A stretch of 64,000 nt of DNA from Plasmodium relictum. Its lineage: Eukaryota > Apicomplexa > Aconoidasida > Haemosporida > Plasmodiidae. Below the pieces are notes generated by a model. That model saw only the letters and a program-made list of their open reading frames with translations, was not told the DNA's origin and made no database searches. This document shows, one piece after another, positions 41,752 through 63,110 of the stretch. Each line of letters begins with the position of its first letter. Position 1 is the stretch's first letter. The stretch lies in the NCBI RefSeq assembly GCF_900005765.1, contig NC_041688.1, forward strand, positions 124,001-188,000, in the 5' to 3' direction. The position numbers and the translations under genes are program-made.

Positions 41752-42102
41752 TTTCTTCTTTTTAAACAGATAGATATACATATGATATTTCTTTTAAAAT
41801 ATTTTTATATCTGCTGCCATTATTTTTTTTCTTTCTTTTATATAATATCCAATGTGATAAATAAATTATTACTTTTGTATGAATTTTTATTGTTTAAATA
41901 TATGCATTTTTACTAGATTTATTTTTAATTTAAAACAAGATAAAAAATAAGAATTGTGAGATTTTATATCCAAAAAAAATTATTTTTAACAATTTATAGA
42001 ATAATTTTATTATAAAAACTCAAAAAAAAAAAAAAATAATTTTAATTATGTTTGTGTTTAACTATATTAAGCTTTTCTATTTAACATAAAATAAAATATA
42101 TA
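41395..42102. other. Intergenic with poly-T run
   Basis: 708 bp between two plus-strand genes. It contains 37 consecutive T at 41713-41749; the Phe-rich open frame across it is an artefact. It would hold the 3' UTR of the 40546 gene and the promoter of the DUF760 gene. Confidence 0.65.
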
Positions 42103-43839
42103 ATGCTAAGATTGATTTATATATTTCTTATTGATTTTTTTATTGGTATATCAGTTAATTATTTTTTTGAATTTAATTATGTAAAATGCAAAAAAAATAT
42201 ATTTCACATTGATAAAATATTTCCAAAAATAAATAATAAAAAAATTAAATTTAAAAACCAAAAGAAATATTTTTTTTTATCAAAAAATTACTATACAAAA
42301 AAAAAATATATTCCTAAAAGTAAAAATTTTAAATATCACATAGGAAATAATATAATACACGGAATAAATAACTATGATTTATTAAATTTTAGTCATTTGT
42401 CTTTTTTTAAACTAAGAAAGTTTAAAATTTATAATAATTTTGAAAATGATAATTATTCAGAGAATAATAAAGAGGATGAACAAGAAAAAAATAAAGATTT
42501 AAATGAGAAAAATGAAAAATGGAAGAAATTTTTAGAGGATAAGAGGAGGAAGGAAATACTAAAGGATTTAGAAAATAAAATACTTAAACATCGTAAAAAA
42601 GAAGAAAAATGCAATGAGAAAAACGATATTTGTAATGACAAAGAAGATTTTTATTTTAAAGATGATGATGATGATGAAAATGAAGATGAGGAGGAGGATG
42701 AAAGTGAGGAAGATAATAATTTAGATTATTTTCATAACGATAACGAAGAAAATAATAAGGATTTTAGTAGCAACAAAAAAGATGAAAATATAGATAAAAA
42801 TAAATTTTTTGAAGATAAAAAAAACAATTCTTCAATTAATGAAAATATAAATAATTTTTTCACATCAAAAAAAAAAAATGATTTCCCTTTGTTTTTTTCA
42901 CTAAATAATAAATCATTTGAAAATAGCAATAACAAGTATTTTGATAAAATTTGTAGCATATCACCAAATGAATTAATTAACAGATTTTTTGAAAACACAT
43001 CTGAAAGAGTTAAGGAAGCAGTAAAAACTACCATATTTAATATAATAGGAAATATTCAAAAATACACAATAGAAACATCAATTTTAATTACTTATGATAA
43101 AATATATAATTTTCTTTTGCAAATTATTTTAACTGGATATATGATAAAAAATGCTGATTATAGGCTAAGTTTAAATGAGTCACTATATGATCAAAATAAT
43201 ACAATCAATAAAAAAGGAGAGGATTTTTTAAATTTAAAAAAATCTTTTTACAGTCTATTTGCTGATAGTGACAAAATGGAAAATGAAACGTTAAACTCAA
43301 ATGAATTAAATAATAATATTAATTACAATAATCTAAAAAACAAAGATATAGATATAAAGGAAATTAATGAATTTAATCATAATTATGATAAAAATGAAAA
43401 GAAAACCAATTTAATTGGTCAATCTTTTGCACAATATAAGGAAATACAAAATGATGATTTCCCCATAATTAATACAAAAAACTATATAATATTTTTAAGA
43501 AAAAAAATAAACTATTTAGAAAATCAATTGAAAATATTAAAAGAAAATAAGACTTTTCTAAATGATGATTTACTTTCTTATATTAAATCATTAACAGATG
43601 TTCAATTACGTTCCTTAACTGATAATATAGGTGCATTAGTTTTAGATGCAACAAAAAAAATAGTAGAATTAGTAATTCAAGGAATGACCCTAAATATAAA
43701 TAAAAACCTATCAAATGAATTAATATACGTAAGTGGTTCAGTTTTAACATACATTTGTTTTTGGCAGTTAATTATTGGTTATACATTGAGAGAAATGGAA
43801 ATAAGAGATGAACTATCAGATTATTTAAAAGAAAATTAA
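42103..43839 (+). CDS. DUF760-family protein with a likely apicoplast-targeting leader
   Basis: 578 aa, single exon. The N-terminus is a hydrophobic signal-like segment (LRLIYIFLIDFFIGISVNYFF region, about 2-22) followed by a 90-residue Lys/Asn-rich stretch poor in acids, the layout of a bipartite apicoplast presequence. A charged low-complexity region (about 120-280) follows. Two copies of a helical domain resembling plant and cyanobacterial DUF760 come next: residues 300-361, with KEAVKTTIFNIIG and GYMIKNADYRLSL, and 490-578, with SYIKSLTDVQLRSL and IIGYTLREMEIRDEL. In plants such proteins are chloroplast-located and of unknown biochemical role, so a plastid function here is a reasonable inference. 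No other family fits. It is the last gene before the desert. Confidence 0.75.
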   Translation: MLRLIYIFLIDFFIGISVNYFFEFNYVKCKKNIFHIDKIFPKINNKKIKFKNQKKYFFLSKNYYTKKKYIPKSKNFKYHIGNNIIHGINNYDLLNFSHLSFFKLRKFKIYNNFENDNYSENNKEDEQEKNKDLNEKNEKWKKFLEDKRRKEILKDLENKILKHRKKEEKCNEKNDICNDKEDFYFKDDDDDENEDEEEDESEEDNNLDYFHNDNEENNKDFSSNKKDENIDKNKFFEDKKNNSSINENINNFFTSKKKNDFPLFFSLNNKSFENSNNKYFDKICSISPNELINRFFENTSERVKEAVKTTIFNIIGNIQKYTIETSILITYDKIYNFLLQIILTGYMIKNADYRLSLNESLYDQNNTINKKGEDFLNLKKSFYSLFADSDKMENETLNSNELNNNINYNNLKNKDIDIKEINEFNHNYDKNEKKTNLIGQSFAQYKEIQNDDFPIINTKNYIIFLRKKINYLENQLKILKENKTFLNDDLLSYIKSLTDVQLRSLTDNIGALVLDATKKIVELVIQGMTLNINKNLSNELIYVSGSVLTYICFWQLIIGYTLREMEIRDELSDYLKEN

Positions 43840-44824
43840 AGCTGTATTATTTTTGTTTTATGAAGATCTTACTCAAATTTTTAAATATATTATCCCTTTT
43901 ATGTATTTTTTTTTTTTTTTAATATTATGCTTTTAATTAAATTATTAAAAAATTATTATGAATTATTAATAAATATATTCCATTCATTTTCTTTTAATAT
44001 ATTTAAATTTTATTTGTATTTTTTTAAATATTTTTTTTTTGGATCTTTTAAAGTTTTTTTTAATAAATTATGGAATTTTCCTTCAAATTTTTTTTATTGG
44101 TACATTCATCATTTAATTATTTAAAGATTTTCAATTCATTTAAATTTTTAAATGCACAATTATTAAATAGATCATCATAATTTCTTTTTAAACATAATAT
44201 TTAATTATAAAATTAACTAAATTAAAAAATAATGCATTCACTCAATGACTTTTTTATGTATTTGAAATCACATTTGCTAACAAAATTCTATGAAATATAT
44301 AATTTTTTTGTGAAATAAATAATACGAAAACAGTACCTCATGAACCTGATTTTAGCTTACAGATTTTAATTTTTATGTACATATAAAAAAAGACAAAATT
44401 TCCTTATCACTTTTTTTTATAATTTTAATTAATCCTTACATACTTCATAATACATAATTATTTTACATTTTTATGAAAAAACTCAAAAAAAAAAAAAAAG
44501 AATCTATAAGCCATGTTTAAGATCACATGATACGTATGCTGATATATTCTTTAATATTTAAAAAAAAAATCAAATAAAATAATTTACAGAAAATAATAGT
44601 AAACTATGTTTATTCCAAAATTAAACATTATAAAAAAATATTTTTCCTATTATTAACTTTTTATTTCTATTTAAAAATATTATGATTATAATGCTCAAGA
44701 CTTTTTTTTTTTTTTTAACTGTTAAACTTATTACCTTTAAAGTATTAAAAAAAATTTCATAAAAGTAAAATTTAAGAACTTATATTATCTAAAATATATC
44801 ATAAAAAAAAAAATATGGTAAAAG

Positions 44825-44890
<66 letters not shown>

Positions 44891-45899
44891 TTCGCAAAAA
44901 CAAAAAAAAAAAAAATAAAGGGGAAAAAAAAGTAATAAAATAGAATATAAAAAGATACTATAAAACAGAAAGAAAAAATGTATTCTTACATTTTTGTCTT
45001 TTTGTTCATTATTTTGTTATATATGTTAATAATTTTTCTTTTTTTATTTGCTTTCCTTTATCTCTTTGTTTAAGTTTTCTACATTTTTTTATATTATTTA
45101 TTAAGAAAACATATAATTTTTTTTTTATTTTAGTTAATTTCTTATGTGTTATAATTATTCTTTTTTCAATAATGTTCTATGCCTAACTTCTATGTATTTT
45201 CTTAATTATTCATTTGTATGATATATATATCACGTAGGTATTTTTTTATATTTTTGATTGAAGTTCTTTTATAATTTATACAATTTTATTTTTCTCTTTT
45301 TTGTATTTTTTTCACATATCTTGAGGTACTGTGTTTATTATTTGTAATAAGATGATAAAGTATTATTCTATTTTTCTATTATTTTATTATTAATTTTATT
45401 AGAATGTGCCTCATGAATTAATTATTCTATTTTTCTTTCCTTTTTATGTTCTCTTTTTTTTTTTTTAATGTTTATAGGATGTAGGTTGATTAATGAATAA
45501 ATTAATCTGTTCGTACTGTTATAGAATAATTAGTAATTAAATCTTGAATTATGATAGAACTATTATCATATGATTTTCGCAAATAGCTTTTTTTATTATG
45601 AGGAATTGGTATTGATATGACTTTGTACTACCATTATTAAGTGAAAATTTATGTTGTGATATTATTTATTGGTTATTTGATTTACTATTTTCTATAAGTA
45701 TAATATTTTTTGTTAGTTATATTTATTTAGTTTACGTTTCAAGTTTCTAAGAACTCCAGAAAAAATATATATAAATTATATTTATTAAAAACCTTTTTCA
45801 TAAATCAGTCACTTTTTTTTATAATATTGAATATTATTATCTAGTACTTTACACATTTTGTAATATACATATCAGTTTTGTATAGATAAATACAAGAGA
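43840..45899. other. Left part of the gene desert
   Basis: No gene seen. The (AT)n tract at 44828-44887 marks a change in texture: to its right, homopolymers thin out and base composition becomes more mixed, which is consistent with transposon-derived DNA. The small Phe/Leu-rich frame at 43927-44124 is not credible. Confidence 0.6.
44828..44887. repeat. (AT)n microsatellite
   Basis: About 30 perfect AT units beside the boundary of the transposon-like region. Confidence 0.95.
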
Positions 45900-48760
45900 A
45901 TTTTCCATATTCTTTAAAAGAAAATATTAAGATGAGGTCTATATGAACCATTATCAGCAGTAATCTTATGTTTCAATATTTCACTTAATGTTTGTTCGGT
46001 AATTGGAATTTTTTTCTTACATTTATAGCTTATTATAGTGTAATTGCAACTTATTTCAGGTAAAATGCTCTAATTTTATTTTGCTCTTGTACATAATTTT
46101 GCGAATTATAAGGATAATGATTTAAACTTTCATAACAATAATTTATTTCATATGAATACTTCTAAAGATTTTATCATAATCATAATAAGTCGTTGTAACA
46201 GAGTACCTTTTTATTTTATCTAAATTCACATATAATTTAAGCAAAATACATATGAAAGGATACCTCATTGCATTAATAGTATTTTCTTTTTCATACGTAT
46301 CAATAATTTAGCATGTATGTAATAATTATACTTCTTCAATAATCTCATATATATCCATTGTGTTTCTTTTTAAATCTAACCTTACTATATTTTGTATATT
46401 CCTCTCTCTATAATTATTAATTTTTCATGGTTAAACTATAATATATGATCTTGGTAATTCATAAATAAGATTTTCATTAAATATTTCAAAAGCAACTATT
46501 TTTATACATCCTGAAAAAATATATTCATGAAATAAATTCTTAATTTTTTAACATAATAGAGATATTTAGAAATGTTTTTAGATATATGAGAATTCTCTGT
46601 GTATATATATTCAAATTTATTTTAGGATTTATTTTTATATCTTTGAAATCTATGAAAAAATGTGTTTTAAATTCATTATAATATTGAAAATTATCTGATT
46701 TTAAAAAAACACATTTGTCTCTTTTAATGAAGTTTTATTCTTTATTTAACTTTTATCGATATAACTTAAATTTAGTACGTGGGAAATCTGAATTTTTTCT
46801 TATACTATTTATATAAAATTTTTTTTTTCATTCTTATGTAATTTTGAACTAAAATAAAATTTTTCATTATAATTTTATTATTAATTATGGAAATTGGAAA
46901 ACTTATTTCATAGTAACTAATGGATTTATATGTTAATTTGCCTTCTATTTTATTCATTATATTCCTATTTTTTTGTAAGATATCTTCGGATGTTATTATT
47001 TCTATTTGGGTATTTTCATTCACAGTATTTTGTTTCGTATCTTCATATAATAATAAGGAAATTTTACTACATTAAGATTCTATTTTGCTTATTGAATATA
47101 TTATTACATTTTAATAGTTTTTATTTAAATTATTATGGATTATCATTTGTTTCACTGGAAGCATAGTAACATAACCCTTAAATTTTGTTTCCGATTTTAT
47201 ATACTGTTTTATTAAATTAGATGTTTAAATGATTTTATAATATTTTAAACAGTCAAAATAATAAAGGGCATGTAGGGAAATAATTACCAATATTAATAAA
47301 ATATATTCTTATCATTTCCTTACAATTAGTCCTAATTAATTCCTTGGGCCCTTTAATATAATAGTCAAGTGTTTCACAAGCTATAACTATTGAAAATAAT
47401 TTCTTTTTCTATTGTATTCCATTTCCACTTAATATCATTCAGTTATCTTTATGTATAATAGATAAATCTTGTCTGATCAATATCGTTATCTATTTGAGTT
47501 AACACAGCTTCCATAGCATAATATGATGCGTCTATATAGATGATACAAGGTTTTCCAAGTAGATAATAATATAATTAATTTGGAAGTTCATTTTGACAAG
47601 TTCTTTATATAATTTCTATAATAATTAGTATCTCCTAAAAGTTATCTCAATAGTTTCCTAGATTTATATCTGCCTATTTCAATAATGATTTTTATTTTAT
47701 CTAATGAGGATTTAATTTCTCTTTGATTTATTATTTTTCCTATATAAGTTATAGATGTTTTAATAATCAGCATTTTTCCACATTTATTCGTAAATTATTA
47801 TTAATAAGAAGTCTACATACTTTTCTTAATACTTTAAAATGTTCAATTATTGTTTTTAGAAGATGATGACAACATATAGAACCATGTAATTTCCTCAAAT
47901 TTATTTCTACAAAAATATTTTTCATTATTCTTTGAAAATGTACATGACTAATTTTTAATCCAAATGGCAATACATTAAATACAAAAGTTCTATGATTATG
48001 TACTATCAATCTAGAACACTACTTACTATTTTTTTCAAATGCATTATTTCAAAATATATTTTTAAGGTCTATCTTTGAAAACCATTTAGTATCATGAAAT
48101 TCTTGAAATATATATTTCATATGTGTAATGATATATATTTATAACATATAATAATTTTCCATTGATCATTCTTTTTTCTAACTAATATTACAGTTGAAGT
48201 CCATTCTGCGTTAATGACTTATCACTTTTTATACTAATATTTTGTTTACTTTCCGATATAATACAGATAAACTTTCTTCATTAAGGTGCCTAGGTTTATA
48301 TCGTCGTGTTCTTCCTTATATCTTAATAAAAACTTTATGTTTATATATAGTTTTCCTAATTTTTTTAGAGAATACAATTAGCTTCTAATTTCTTCTTTTC
48401 GTCTTTATTTTTTTGAGAAGTTAACTCTGTTTTATCAAAAAAAAATTTAATAATCACTTGATTAGATATTTCTTTATTTTCTTCTTTTATTTATTTGAAT
48501 TTCATAATATATATATATGTAATTTTTATCGTGATTTTTAAAAATATCCTAATTGATTCATAATAGCTCAAACAATCAGTATAAGTTGTTTTATTGTGTT
48601 TAATATAGAAAGATTTGTATACTAATTTATCATTGAGCTTCATGCTCATTACAACCTTTTTAAGAATTATAACTTGATCTCTATTGAATATTCCTCAGAT
48701 TTTAATTGACGAAAATTCTATGTAAGATTATATTTCTTCAGAAAAATATGATATAGTACA
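45900..48760 (-). mobile_element. Decayed Ty3/gypsy LTR retrotransposon (pol fragment)
   Basis: On the minus strand the order is: linker (48.7-48.35 kb), reverse transcriptase, connection, RNase H, then downstream unassigned sequence, as in a gypsy pol. The frame is broken many times by stops and frameshifts, so it is a dead copy. I could not find two matching LTRs, a primer-binding site, a gag zinc knuckle or a confident integrase HHCC or DD35E set. One weak integrase-like spot (ITADNG) lies around 45.9 kb. Boundaries are approximate: the right end meets the 72-bp satellite, the left is set by where recognisable sequence fades. Ty3/gypsy elements are known from avian Plasmodium. Confidence 0.75.
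47400..48345 (-). pseudogene. Broken reverse transcriptase-RNase H of the retrotransposon
   Basis: Readable family motifs in three interleaved frames, in order: RRYKPRHLNEESLSVL, then NAEWTSTVILVRKKNDQW (like SSPVVLVKKKDGSW), DTKWFSKIDLK (the WFSKIDLKSGY motif with first catalytic Asp), then the 80-codon open piece with VFNVLPFGLKISHVHFQRIM (like VLPFGLTNAPATFQRLM) and the KC end. After that come TNYYRNYIKNLSK (NYYRRFI) and GKPCIIYIDASYYAMEAVL (RNase H TDAS). At the YVDD catalytic site I read YVVI, so the catalytic Asp pair is lost. Several stops lie between blocks. The element is inactive as written. Confidence 0.85.
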
Positions 48761-48789
48761 TAATTATACTCTTATACTTAATAAAATAT

Positions 48790-50040
48790 ACATTGACAAA
48801 CTCAATATATGTAATAATAATAATGAAATGATATGTATGAATATATAATGAATTATTACTAAATGTTATAAACTAAAAATATGTAATAGTAATAATGAAG
48901 TGATATGTATAAATATGTAATGAACTATTACCGTAAGTTATAAACTTAATATATGTAATAATAATAATGAAATGATATGTATAAATGTGTAATGGATTAT
49001 TAATATATGTGACAAACTCAATATATGTAATAATAATAATGAAACGATATGTATGAATATATAATGAATTATTACTAAATGTTATAAACTCAATATATAT
49101 AATAATAATAATGAAATGATATGTATAAATGTGTAATGGATTGTTACTATATGTGATAAACTAAATATATGTAATAATAATAAATAAAAGGTATGTGTAA
49201 ATATGTAATGAATTATTAATAAATGTTATAAACTCAAAATACGTAATAATAATAATGAAACGATATGTATGAATATATAATGAATTATTACTAAATGTTA
49301 TAAACTCAATATATGTAATAATAATAATGAAATGATATGTATAAATGTGTAATGGATTATTAATATATGTGACAAACTCAATATATGTAATAATAATAAT
49401 GAAATGATATGTATGAATATATAATGAATTATTACTAAATGTTATAAACTCAAAATAAGTAATAATAATAATGAAATGATATGTATAAACATGTAATGGA
49501 TTATTAATATATGTGACAAACTCAATATATGTAATAATAATAATGAAATAATATGTATAAATATATAATGAATTATTACTAAATGTTATAAACCAAGTAT
49601 ATGTAATAATAATAATGAAATGATATGCATAAATGTGTAATGGATTATTAATATATGTGACAAACTAAATATATGTAATAATAATAATGATATGATATGT
49701 ATGAATATATAATGAATTATTATCAGAACTTATATAATAATAACGAAATGATATGTATAGATATATAATAAATTATTACTAAATGTTATAAGCTCAAAAT
49801 ATGTAATAATAATAATGAAATAATATGTATAAATATGTAATGAATTATTACTAAATGTTATAAACTCAATATATGTAATAATAATAATGAAATGATATGT
49901 ATGAATATATAATGAATTATTACTAAATGTTATAAACTCAAAATAAGTAATAATAATAATGAAATGATATGTATAAATGTGTAATGGATTATTAATATAT
50001 GTGACAAACTCAATATATGTAATAATAATAATGAAACGAT
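48790..50040. repeat. 72-bp satellite array, about 17 copies
   Basis: The core ATGTAATAATAATAATGAAA recurs exactly every 72 bp from about 48801 (48873, 48945, 49017 and on), with little drift. Two unit types alternate for much of the array: type A (ATAATGAATTATTACTAAAT) and type B (GTAATGGATTATTAATATAT), so the higher-order period is often 144 bp. One unit near 49715-49735 is shortened. The array runs straight into the assembly gap, so its real length is unknown. Confidence 0.95.
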
Positions 50041-50340
50041 NNNNNNNNNNNNNNNNNNNNNNNNNNNNNNNNNNNNNNNNNNNNNNNNNNNNNNNNNNNN
50101 NNNNNNNNNNNNNNNNNNNNNNNNNNNNNNNNNNNNNNNNNNNNNNNNNNNNNNNNNNNNNNNNNNNNNNNNNNNNNNNNNNNNNNNNNNNNNNNNNNNN
50201 NNNNNNNNNNNNNNNNNNNNNNNNNNNNNNNNNNNNNNNNNNNNNNNNNNNNNNNNNNNNNNNNNNNNNNNNNNNNNNNNNNNNNNNNNNNNNNNNNNNN
50301 NNNNNNNNNNNNNNNNNNNNNNNNNNNNNNNNNNNNNNNN
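50041..50340. other. Assembly gap (300 N)
   Basis: Exactly 300 unresolved bases between the 72-bp satellite and a poly-T run; both flanks are hard to assemble. True size is not known from the sequence. Confidence 1.
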
Positions 50341-50860: not shown

Positions 50861-51310
50861 TTTACACTTACTATATTTTAGTCACTTTTTTTTTGTTATA
50901 TATTAACAGTGTTTTCTCATAAAAAATATACTTATTCTAAAAGTTTATTGTTATTTTATTGATTTTTTTTTTTTAGTTTATACACATATTAAACTTAATT
51001 GAAAAAAAAAATTAGTTATACATAAGAAAAACTTTGTTCTTATTCCACCATTTTATGTAATTATTTATTAAGCATATACAAATCTATAAATGTACACTTA
51101 CTATATTTCATTATTTTCTTTTTTTGTTATATATTAACAGTGTTTTCTCATAAAAAATATACTTATTCTAAAAATTTAATATTATTTGATTTTTTTTTTT
51201 TTAGTTTATACAAATATACTATACTTAATTAAAAAAAAAAAAATTGATTATATATAAGAAAAACTTTGTTCTTATTACACCACTTTATGTAATTATGTAT
51301 TATGCATATA
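50861..51310. repeat. Tandem duplication of a 230-bp segment
   Basis: Two adjacent diverged copies, starting at about 50861 and 51091. Both have TACACTTACTATATTT, then TTATATATTAACAGTGTTTT, CTCATAAAAAATATACTTAT and AAGAAAAACTTTGTTCTTAT in the same order and spacing. Confidence 0.85.
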
Positions 51311-51469
51311 CAGGTTTATTAGTTCTTTTTCTTTTAATACTTTATATTATATACTTATTTTTTTAAATAAATATTCAATTTCATAATCATGCATATATTT
51401 AATTCTATAAACTTATCTATGTAATTTTTTTTATGTATTTATACTTTAATGTGTTTCAATATGCTAAAA

Positions 51470-51925
51470 GGCTTCTTAATTATTAATGATAAAAAAAATA
51501 AAAAATACTGTTATGCTTTTATATAATTAATGATAAAAAAAATAAAAAATACTGTTATGCTTTTATATAATTATTGATACAAAAAATAAAAAATACTGTT
51601 ATGCTTTTATATAATTATTGATACAAAAAATAAAAAATACTGTTATGCTTTTATATAATTATTGATAAAAAAAATAAAAAATACTGTTATGCTTTTATAT
51701 AATTATTAATGATACAAAAAATAAAAAATACTGTTATGCTTTTATATAATTATTGATAAAAAAAATAAAAAATACTGTTATGCTTTTATATAATTATTGA
51801 TACAAAAAATAAAAAATACTGTTATGCTTTTATATAATTATTAATGATACAAAAAGCAAATAATATTATACTTTTATATAATTATTAATGATACAAAAAA
51901 CATTATACTTTTATATATATTTAAA
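51470..51925. repeat. 44-bp tandem repeat, about 8 full copies plus degenerate ends
   Basis: The word TACTGTTATGCTTTTATATA recurs at 51506, 51550, 51594, 51638, 51682, 51729, 51773 and 51817: period 44, once 47. The last units (from 51861) decay. No coding potential. Confidence 0.93.
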
Positions 51926-58187: not shown

Positions 58188-59917
58188 TTAATTATTTAAC
58201 TCATTTTTAATTTGTATAATTTCTTTAACTGGTATTGGTTCGTATGGAAATTTTTTTAGTTTTGGTATTTTCAAATTTTGCAGTGACGTTATTAAATAAT
58301 CAATTGAATTATCCGATAATTTTATGCATGGATTTTCTTGAGGTAATAAACTTAAAAAATCGCTTATTATATTAGGCATATTAAAGTATTCTCTTTTTAA
58401 AATATATTCTTTTTTATCATTTTTATCTTTTTTATTGTATTTATTGTTTTTATTTATATCATCAATATATTCTATGTTATTATTTAACAAACTATCTATT
58501 TCACTGTTCTTTTTTTTTTTCTCTTTTTGCGCATATTGGTAACTTTCAAAAGGTCTATATATAGACATCATCTTTAAATCAGGTCTAATAATGTAATTAA
58601 CAGAGTCAGTTATATCTATTTTCCCCTTTTTTTTTTTTTTACTATTACTGTCATTATTTACTTTCTTTTTTTTCATGTAACTTTTTGAGTCATAAAAATT
58701 GAAAGAATCATAAGTGGAGCTAATTAATCCATTTTTGTATTCACTCATTTTTTTTTTCATATAACTATTATCAAGTTCATTTTCAACTACGTTATTATCG
58801 ATGAAATTGTTTTCATTTGCATCATTTTCATTCATAAAATTTTTATTTATATTACTTTCATTTATATCCTCATTTACTTGATCATTTATAATTAGTGTCG
58901 ATTCTTTTCCTTCTTTTCTTCTTTTTTTTCTTTCCATGCTATCACAGTAAGCTAACAATGAAAATGGATTAATACTTTTAATTTGAAAAAAAGAAAATGT
59001 CTTTTTTAAAGATGTACCAGCAAATAATTGAGAATTAATTAAATTTATTTTAAATTGTAAGCTATCAATGTCATTTTTTTTTAAGTTTTCAAGATATCCT
59101 TTACATAATATGTCAGTAATAGTATTATCATCTAATAGAGCATTTTCATTATTATCAGATATATTCGTGAAATCAAATAAAACATTTTTATTTTCCTCTA
59201 AATTATAACCTGATTCATATTTTAATTTGACTTCAAATATTTTATTCAGATTTCTTATATCACCATAAAATATTTCCAGTTGTATTAGAAAATTCCATAT
59301 TCTATCACATGATTTATTTTTATTTTTTAATAATTTTAAGTAACCTGATTCAAACAAATTGAATTCATTTTGTCCAGTTTTAGATTTTACATCTTTTTTA
59401 TCAAATGAATAATTTACTTCATATTCTTTATAAAATTTTGCATAATAATCATGAATATATTTATAAATTAAAGTTCTTATATGATTTAAGTTTCCTTTCT
59501 CTAATAAAAAATGTATGTAATAAAAAAGATATTTTTTCTTTGATGAAAATTTCTTATAACCTTCACTCATAATATATATAGCTCTTTTTTCGTTATTTAA
59601 AATTCTTCTTTCTATGTTTGCACAATAATAATATATTTCTTCTGAGCATTTTTCTTGATTCAATATTATACTTACATAATATCTCCATATAGTTTCATCA
59701 TAATTTCTTTTAATAAAGTTTAAAAAGTGTGTAAATACAAAATGCCTTCTTTTTTTCTTGTTTATATTAATATACTTTATAAAATACTTTTTTCTTTCTT
59801 CTAGCTTTTCATAATCACTTTGATAAAATTTTCTTCTTATTTCATCATCACTAGTATCTGATAAGCTTTTAGAAGGATTATTTAAAAATTTCACTTCATT
59901 TTTATCACTATTTTCGA

Positions 59918-59968
<51 letters not shown>

Positions 59969-61739
59969 TACTATTACTTTCTATCTTTTCTGTTTCATCT
60001 ATTTCTATGTTTTCTCTTTTAATCCTTTTAAATTCTCTTTGACTTTCTTCATTATTTTCATTTTGTTCTAATTTTCTTCCTTTTTTTTTCCCTTTTCCTT
60101 TTTCATTTTTATCTTTTTTTTCATTTTCATCTTCTTTTCCTTTTTCATTTTTATCTTTTTTTTCATTTTCATTTTCTTTTCCTTTCTCTTTTTTTTTTTT
60201 TTTTTTCTTTTTTAAATGACAATACGGTAACTTTTTAAATTTTTCTTTTGAATATAAAAAAGATAAAGAAAATTTCTTCTTTTTTTTTGATACTTCATTA
60301 AGCATTAGTTGATAAATATAATGAGCTTGATTTATCAAAGAATATTTTTCAAAAAAATAAGCAAAATTTAATTTTAATAGTTCATCAAATGGTAAATATA
60401 TTTCTATTGCTTCTCTCATAATTCTAATAGCATAATTAAATTTTTTATTTAATAATAAAAATTGGAAATAAGAAAACCACATATCTGCGTTAAACTGTAA
60501 GTGTATCAATGCTTGCTCATAGATATACATAATTCTTTTACAAACTAAAGATAATTTTAATTTAAGAGGATTAGATTTTTCAAAATTAATAATTTTCATC
60601 CATTTTAAATATAACAAGTTATTTTCAATTTTAGACTTTTTATTAATAGGTATTATTATTTTAAATTTCTTATCCAAATTCATTTCTTTATATAAATTAG
60701 ATAATTCTTTATATGCATTTTTTGAATTTAAGTATTGAGTATTAAATGTTGATAAGTAAATGTTTGTAGAATTATCATTACTCTTTTCAAAGGAGCAAAA
60801 GCATTTCCAAACTTTATCTAAATATTTTGTAGTATTATTAAGCCAACATTGATAAAAATTTCTTAATTTCCCATCATTTGCATAATGTTCAATATATGTT
60901 ACTTTAGAATTATTATTAGGAATGGGAGATTTAAATATTATTTGTTCTTGCTCTGAAGGTAATAATGGGGTTTCTATCCTATTCCCATTACTGTTATTTT
61001 TAAATGGATCATATAATAAATTCTGTATATTATTATTTAATAATAAATTGGTATTATGTATTTTTATTAATATATAAAGTAATTCAACCCATATATTACC
61101 TGATTTAATATCTGTTCCTACACACTTTAATGATTCAAATAAGAAACTTATGTATTCATGAATCGAAGAGGTATGATATGCAAAATATAAGAATGATAGA
61201 AATAATTTCAAATCATAAATATTTGAATCAATACATTTACGATAAATATTATATGCATTTTTATATTCTTTTTTTTTTATTTTTAATTCAGCATATTTTA
61301 TCCAATACCAAGTACACCTTGGAAAAATCAACAAAAACTGTTCATATACTTCTTCTGTTTCATATAATTCTAAAAGTTTATACCACCTATTTAAATGTAA
61401 TGGATTGCACCTTAAAAAATGTAATTCTTCTTTGTAAGAATTTATATTTGTTCTTATATCATTTGTATTCTCTATTTTTTTCTCTAAATTATTTAAATCA
61501 GCAAAATTATTATCTTCATTTACTGTTACATTTTCTTTATTGTGTTCTTCATAATTTATATTTGAGTTTACTTTATTTCCTGTTATCTCAGATACATATT
61601 CTTCTACATTAAAATTTTTATAAATTTCTTTCGTTTTTTCATCTATTTTTAAACAAGTAGAAAAAAGTTGTTTTGCTATAATTAATTCATTATTATTAAC
61701 ATCAAAATTTAAATTATTTAAATTGGAATATTTAATCAT
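58188..61739 (-). CDS. CSTF3: Cleavage stimulation factor subunit 3 (CSTF3/Rna14), HAT-repeat protein
   Basis: Scaffold of the nuclear mRNA 3'-end cleavage and polyadenylation machinery. Single exon, 1183 aa against about 717 in human; the excess is low-complexity insertion. HAT repeats start at about 106 (NPLHLNRWYKLLELYE; FPRCTWYWIKYAELKIKKKEY) and continue with NADMWFSYFQFLL (about 420), then NYDETIWRYYVS and IERRILNNEKRAIYIMSEGY after the insertions. The block IWNFLIQLEIFYGDIRNL corresponds to the family's IWxRFLxFExxxGDLxSI. YIIRPDLKMMSIYRP (about 1048-1062) matches the conserved IVRPDTKQMIPFQP near the C-terminus, which separates CSTF3 from other HAT proteins such as Prp39. Insertions include a KEKGKENENEKKD tract (about 515-560) and an Asn run (about 593-608). 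ATG 61739 fits the expected start. Confidence 0.88.
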
Positions 61740-63110
61740 ATTCTTGTCATTATTTTAAGTAGATTAACAAAAAAAAAAAGAAAAAAAGAAAAAAAAATAG
61801 AATCAGAAAAAAGAAAGAATAAAAAAAAAGAAATAAAAGATAAAAGGAAAAAAGAAAAAGGAAAAGGAAAAGGAAAAAGAAAGAAAAAAAAAAAAAAAAA
61901 AGTTAAAATTGAAATTGAAATTAAAAATTATGAAAAAAAATATACTGAAAAATAAAATGAAAAATACATATATAAAGAAATTTTAGTTTAAACAAAAGAA
62001 ACAAGAATTAAAATAATCTATATATATTTATATGGAAAACAATTTTTCAATTTTTAAAATTAAAATAATTGACAAAAAAATAAATGTCAAATAAATGCTT
62101 TTCACTTAAAAAAAAAATTTGTAAAAAATTTAGAAATAAAAAATGCAGCTATAATATTAAATTTAATGGTATAATAATATTACCAAAAAAATCAATAATG
62201 ATAAAAAGATGAATATACATATTTTATATCTAATTTGAAATAATGTAATTTCCCTTAAATATATTGTAATATTTTTAAAAAATAGAGGAAAAAAAGGAAA
62301 TCTTCAAATGACAAAAATTAAAATAAAAAATAAGTGTAAAAAGTAATGTTACAAAATGTAATATTTATATATGAACAATTTATAAAATTAGAAAATTGGA
62401 TTTTACATATTTATTTAATTATTTATTTGTATATTATTCATTTTTTTTTTTTTTTTTTTAATAAAACTTTAATAATAACATTTAAATTAATTTAAACGAA
62501 AAGAAAAAAAAAACTATCCAAATTTATGGAAAATTACTAATATGTAATACACCTATATATTTTTTATACTACATTTAATTTTTATTCGGAAGATAAAGAC
62601 AAAATTTAATATGATATCTATGAAAATATTACTAATTATTGTAATTTTTTATAATAAAATATAAGAAAAATTTTAAGAGTTATATTTCAAATATAATATA
62701 TTGGGCAAATCAGCAGCACGAAAAGAAAAACGGATATATATATATATATATAGAAAAATTAGCATTTTTATATAAAATTAAAAAAAAAAAAGAAAAAAAA
62801 ATTTATACAAAAAAACAATGTTCTCATTTATTATATTGCATTATTGTTATTATGCTAATCTATCCAATTAGTTAAAAAAAAAGTATATTAAAAAGGAAAC
62901 AATATACATCAAATGATTTCTATTTAGAAGCATAAAAAAAAAAAAATAATAAAATTATAAAATTTATTTAAAAATCTTATATTGAAAAATATAAAAAATT
63001 TATTCATATATTACAAAAAAAAACATAAGGAAAATCAAAAAAGTTATTATTTTTAATATTATATATATATAATGAAAAGTATATAATTTCTTTTTTTTTT
63101 TTTCAAATAT
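61740..63110. other. Intergenic, no gene seen
   Basis: 1.37 kb between two minus-strand genes, promoter side of CSTF3. A strongly strand-biased purine tract covers about 61768-61920 (AAAGGAAAAGGAAAAGG units near 61851-61877); this is pyrimidine-rich on the CSTF3 sense strand and close upstream of its ATG. Confidence 0.65.

Follow-up and report, generated by a model that had tools for sequence, protein, structure and literature searches.

We conclude, with a probability of roughly 85%, that a dead, twice-truncated copy of an avian-malaria Ty3/gypsy LTR element lies in a chromosome core of Plasmodium relictum. The window, the whole stretch of 64,000 nucleotides that was analysed, is C10:124001-188000 of P. 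relictum, where C-numbers are contigs of the same assembly, C10 has 1,164,052 bases, and the relic is 171 kb from the contig end. The genome searched comprised 22.60 Mb in 514 contigs, and the published genome is given as 22.6 Mb in 498 scaffolds (PMC5880244). The same account, published in 2018, counts 344 Ty3/gypsy fragments in P. relictum and 1,244 in P. gallinaceum, the vast majority of them subtelomeric, and it describes a near-complete element of P. relictum situated in the chromosome core, on chromosome 6 (PMC5880244). The remark of a first-pass annotation that mammalian Plasmodium genomes lack retrotransposons agrees with that source, in which the elements of bird species were already known. 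The evidence supports a real Ty3/gypsy relic within the interval 45900-48760, as predicted from the letters alone, but only part of that interval belongs to the element.

Reverse transcriptase and RNase H

Minus-strand reverse transcriptase (RT) followed by RNase H, the gypsy order that had been proposed, was borne out both by profiles and by a collinear match to P. gallinaceum pol. In a genome-wide profile search, both domains scored above their Pfam cut-offs on the minus strand, RVT_1 at 47761-48270 (41.8 bits versus a cut-off of 29.6) and RT_RNaseH_2 at 47395-47580 (38.7 bits versus 29.8, in a match that includes three TAA). Lone stop-to-stop pieces fell slightly below the cut-offs in hmmscan, with 28.7 bits for RT and 25.5 bits for RNase H. 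A piece of the intact pol of the P. gallinaceum element PGAL8A_00410600 (PMC5880244), which we took by name and size to be the 1,485-residue protein P0004, matched the window in order at 48375-47770, 47776-47561, 47556-47395, and 47408-47277, with 153, 78.6, 60.5, and 54.7 bits, respectively. Chance resemblance might be suspected, as loose settings return many false alignments in this AT-rich DNA, but the highest score in 200 first-order shuffles was 22.7 bits against the 153 observed, and curated cut-offs were passed genome-wide; we give chance next to no credence. Moreover, open reading frame pieces of other copies gave collinear minus-strand matches from 48787 to 47277 with a changing frame (tblastn).

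The relic comprises a Ty3-type RT with RNase H after it, all on the minus strand. The fingers and palm of RT occupy 47770-48375, the part detected by RVT_1, where a single frame holds eight stops and amino acid identity is 43.7% to the P. gallinaceum element and 44.7% to the P. relictum copy on C266. The thumb and connection follow at 47561-47776 in another frame with two stops (55.6% amino acid identity over 72 residues). RNase H, at 47277-47556, is split over two frames and is about 52 to 61% identical to the proteins of C266, C360, and P. gallinaceum, while its tail (47349-47277) is weak at the DNA level. Upstream of RT, a weak match to the protease-RT linker part of pol covers 48386-48787 (26.8% over 138 amino acids to a C360 open reading frame piece by tblastn), and it was accepted solely as a member of the collinear set.

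The four stretches that match P. gallinaceum pol contain 8, 2, 2, and 0 stops, 12 altogether, in frames -2, -1, -2, and -3. Moreover, other residues stand in the relic where its relatives have YIDD, as judged by eye from the alignment. An autonomous element would have an open pol frame and an RT active site, and the relic has neither. Judged from its reading frames, the relic is dead and without present coding function.

Ends of the relic and missing parts

Where the element stops downstream is marked by an LTR. The 3' end of an LTR, at 47205-47300 on the minus strand, aligns with 10 LTR-end pieces from elsewhere and is joined directly to RNase H near 47290. The element ends in CA-3', read as TG on the plus strand at 47205, and TG stands in the same column in 11 of 11 aligned LTR-end rows, the window counted. 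The 10 other rows were picked from 16 printed LTR-end pieces, some of them paired from one element or contig, of which 15 have TG and one (L022:1535) has TT. The LTR end of the relic recurs at no fewer than nine places in the genome with 78 to 83% identity. Moreover, an LTR scan gave two matches at 47202-47295 of 68 and 72.5 bits, where five shuffled windows peaked at 41.0 to 47.3. AT-rich LTR interiors match elsewhere too, as six further matches of 49 to 63 bits occur in the window, all below 33.4 kb. Thus, the RT and RNase H part of the originally proposed interval stands, and its lower part does not, as the element stops at the LTR terminus at 47205.

The region between RNase H and the LTR end appears to have been lost. 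The segment 47277-47193 has its best DNA match 1.0 to 2.7 kb beyond the RNase H match in 4 of 10 copies (C266, C346, C172, and C63), in each case at an LTR position, and the remaining six copies have their best match elsewhere; C172 and C63 score above the best of 40 shuffles, and C266 and C346 tie with it. Together with the LTR alignment, the displaced matches suggest that integrase and the greater part of the LTR were lost here. On C266, RT (43426-43914), RNase H (42940-43239), and integrase (42079-42360) follow in that order on the minus strand. A search with the rve profile, suggested as a check of the original claim, gave at least 45 matches among those listed for the genome and none in the window, and no integrase was found in the window with a profile built from 13 pieces or with P. 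gallinaceum residues 1011-1485. As integrase was not found here and is present in relatives such as C266, the relic is a fragmentary descendant of the family rather than a complete element. A candidate integrase between 45900 and 47277 was rejected, as between 2 and 164 of 200 shuffles attained the Smith-Waterman scores of 11 integrase pieces. For four of the 11 pieces only 2 to 7 of 200 shuffles scored as high, the 13-piece profile was unsupportive, and the strongest-scoring piece maps onto the neighboring pseudogene described below.

At the upstream end, pol homology ends at 48787, and a 72-base tandem array begins at 48794. Residues 1-520 of the P. gallinaceum protein, searched for gag and protease, had no match in the window at an E value of 0.01, and no second LTR match of at least 48 bits was found between 43.8 and 58.2 kb. 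Loose blastn and full LTR scans were flooded by AT-rich matches and gave way to log-odds scores with shuffles and to a minimum bit score set beside five shuffled windows. Neither a target-site duplication nor a second LTR is visible, the upstream end being missing, so insertion at this site by integrase is presumed.

Genes and repeats around the relic

The relic lies in a row of conserved genes. Profile matches identified adaptin, DEAD helicase, HIP, UCH, MCM, DUF760, and Suf genes around it, and we take it that genes of these kinds adjoin one another on P. falciparum chromosome 5. The flanks named in the first-pass annotation were confirmed as a DUF760 gene at 42085-43836 on the plus strand (PF05542, 119 bits) and a Suf (CSTF3-like) gene at 58191-61754 on the minus strand (PF05843, 124 bits), 14.35 kb apart. 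Neither an Rfam match at the gathering score nor a tRNA was found in that interval. The description of the interval as a desert did not hold, however, because a pseudogene, the relic, the 72-base array, and further tandem repeats lie inside it. The insertion may, as first proposed, have expanded a compact interval; recognisable sequence of the element fills only some 1.6 kb of the 14.35 kb. The 72-base array, detected by a tandem-repeat scan, spans 48794-50040 and abuts the upstream end of the relic; its best match outside C10 is 67% identical and lies on C259. An assembly gap of 300 N follows at 50041-50340. We note that tandem repeats with 232- and 44-base units occur in the same gene-poor interval at 50863-51312 and 51482-51900.

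The lower part of the interval first ascribed to the element, 45772-46588 on the minus strand, is instead a degraded copy of PRELSG_1260400, covering residues about 490-765. At the DNA level, 45778-46588 matches C12:2319013-2319870 with 222 bits and 67% identity, and the target lies within a 913-codon open reading frame. The protein encoded there and P. relictum PRELSG_1260400 are identical, in keeping with the avian-lineage Plasmodium host that had been deduced. By tblastn, residues 492-765 align at 46547-45772 (E value of 6e-20), with a weaker and unsure run to 45347. The genome search scored 73.8 bits over a stretch that contains 16 stops, and it placed residues 398-636 at 46844-46155. The pseudogene may therefore reach 46844; between 46590 and 47204, no DNA match was found past 46588 and no protein match at an E value of 1e-3.

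The parent gene sits on C12 (2,613,071 bases), 294 kb from the contig end, and has other relatives in the genome on C287 (35%), C259 (33%), and C11 (28%). Among the 7,994 database candidates scored, chosen for the most shared words, two records came up, one its own in P. relictum and the other PGAL8A_00248500 of P. gallinaceum, 75% identical. The two are hypothetical proteins of 909 and 893 amino acids and form the parent family of the pseudogene, from which the window copy differs by its 16 stops. PRELSG_1260400 had no Pfam match up to an E value of 1, its sole solved-structure match was a rotavirus-type capsid protein (E value of 0.0068), and no mention of either protein was found in the literature searched. 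An origin from a reticulocyte-binding protein was considered and dropped, given the lack of a Pfam match, the hypothetical names of the records, and the lone rotavirus-type structure match. We note that C259 carries, besides its relative of the parent gene, an array of 69-base units resembling the 72-base units of the window (L026 1-855).

A tract shared with C392

A deletion of about 95 bases, at 47559-47561 on the minus strand, is common to the relic and the copy on C392 only, appearing as a gap in 2 of 19 aligned rows; the same 95 columns are missing in none of the 17 other rows. From 47681 to 47349, a tract of about 350 bases, the relic and C392 are about 94% identical (0.88 to 1.00 per 40-column block). 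Outside the tract, C392 identity is 0.59 and 0.80 before and 0.56 and 0.61 after, and the full 450-base match is 88%. The best other copy in the blocks of the tract reaches 0.72 to 0.90 and exceeds C392 in one block (C63, 0.90 versus 0.88). Beyond 47349, the best other copies also drop, to 0.62 to 0.67, and the edge of the tract on the RNase H side is unsure and may reflect poor alignment because all copies align badly there. Moreover, the relic and C392 each have three TAA across the same RNase H profile span, and C392 is dense in LTR pieces.

The surroundings raise the question of whether the relic arrived alone. The relic, satellite, and dead gene could have entered the core together as one subtelomere-like block by ectopic recombination. 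Consistent with such a move, about 350 bases are shared so closely with transposon-dense C392, the paralogues of the dead gene lie on small contigs (C287 and C259), and C259 carries a satellite whose 69-base unit is similar. The window satellite has no close copy elsewhere, however, the parent of the pseudogene is 294 kb inside the end of C12, satellite and gene stand in reverse order on C259, and the subtelomeric place of C392 is only presumed. We consider a block move unlikely. A repeat-rich piece misplaced into the core by the assembly is very improbable: the 300-N gap on the right side would allow for it, but the sequence runs without an N from the DUF760 gene across the relic and up to 50040, and C392 is several per cent different within the shared tract.

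We favor instead a sequence of events in which a single copy would have inserted next to, or in, a PRELSG_1260400 paralogue that is itself now dead. Stops and frameshifts then accumulated in the copy, and one deletion would have brought RNase H up against what is left of the 3' LTR, its last ~95 bases, with integrase and most of the LTR lost. The upstream half (5' LTR, gag, and protease) is missing at the edge of the 72-base satellite, and the ~350-base part of pol spanning thumb and RNase H has its sister, with the same deletion, on C392.

The C392 tract, which hints at exchange with DNA rich in repeats, may be either scarred sequence of common descent or the product of exchange. Rather tentatively, and as something we think less probable than not by some way, sequence may still pass between the dead core element and DNA dense in transposons, perhaps subtelomeric, and the relic, the satellite, and the dead avian-malaria gene may together mark a point of entry of non-core sequence into the conserved core. 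Gene conversion or remobilisation of dead RNA would be the routes of such an exchange. A tract of this kind could be a route for change in otherwise stable Plasmodium cores.

Relation to other copies and species

The family to which the relic belongs is already known. In PGAL8A_00410600 of P. gallinaceum, RT and RNase H homologous to those of the relic follow one another in the same way, the P. relictum copy on C266 is 82% identical to P0004 over RT to RNase H, and the relic has its LTR end in common with other P. relictum copies. Unlike the P. gallinaceum element, the relic is dead and lacks a recognisable integrase, gag, protease, and second LTR, and it lies in a chromosome core whereas published fragments are mostly subtelomeric (PMC5880244). 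A P. relictum retrotransposon transcript that matches the element of P. gallinaceum has been reported (PMC8093664). No description of the relic copy was found in the published accounts, supplements aside (PMC5880244, PMC9141347, and PMC8093664). Its anatomy, the adjoining dead gene, and the C392 tract are possibly new.

Genome-wide, there were at least 90 RVT_1 and at least 97 RT_RNaseH_2 matches. Four of the 90 listed RVT_1 matches are separated by over 100 kb from either end of their contig: C6:520026, C10:171761 (the relic), C14:1689478, and C14:467083. The last, at C14:467083-467412, is a weak match (24.6 bits) in a 2,169-codon open frame and is perhaps, at a guess, telomerase reverse transcriptase. 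The published chromosome 6 core copy (PMC5880244) is probably C6:518696-520514 and surroundings. It lies in the core of the same genome as the relic, has RT, RNase H, integrase, and two LTRs, and differs from C266 in RT subfamily. We also note LTR ends like that of the relic at C8:657499, C11:896966, and C13:1956762. Those on C8 and C11 are far inside large contigs, the 5 kb inspected gave no match to a pol piece, and they may be solo LTRs left behind in the core; the C13 one is close to the end of its contig, with one element piece beside it.

Whether the insertion is old bears on the history of the family. The elements of the two species have been described as independent acquisitions (PMC5880244) and as the result of colonisation of a common ancestor (PMC9141347). 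Our RT tree, from which 3 of 19 sources with stretches shorter than 150 residues were dropped, decides for neither. Without four long rows, the tree sets the P. relictum copies on C6, C122, C172, and C276 apart from the rest (support of 100/100) and puts ten others on one side of a branch (83/86), and it gives no settled place to the P. gallinaceum element; a single clade of P. relictum copies was not rejected (p-AU of 0.138). The tree that includes the relic, which has an odd composition, gives it no settled place either. The DNA of the relic is 0.63 to 0.74 identical to 20 copies, 3 of 23 having been dropped as shorter than 800 bases and some rows containing inserts. Its GC content is 0.219, versus 0.151 in neighboring intergenic DNA and 0.206 to 0.284 in the 23 copies. 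The insertion could be old and already have been present in the common ancestor of P. relictum and P. gallinaceum, though we lean against it: the RT is about equally distant from the P. gallinaceum and C266 proteins and the GC content of the relic is low, but the same distances are expected from fast decay. The relic marks a site among conserved genes that can be inspected in other bird malaria genomes, and such a comparison would tell whether insertions are older than the separation of species.

Finally, the core C6 element offers an observation on priming. The inner flank of its 5' LTR (L028 6934-6953) resembles a primer site and agrees in all of 20 bases with the 3' end of a tRNA-His(GTG) gene on C1, and the same 20 bases also occur at C276 (further coordinates of the comparison, L061 1500-1573 and L040 5645-5668). 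The C7 element has a flank unlike that of the C6 element. The primer site of the P. gallinaceum element is given as tRNA-Ser (PMC5880244), and a pattern search for a tRNA-Ser-like primer site returned one place, with 3 mismatches, which was set aside. Judging from these flanks, the primer may differ between two P. relictum subfamilies.
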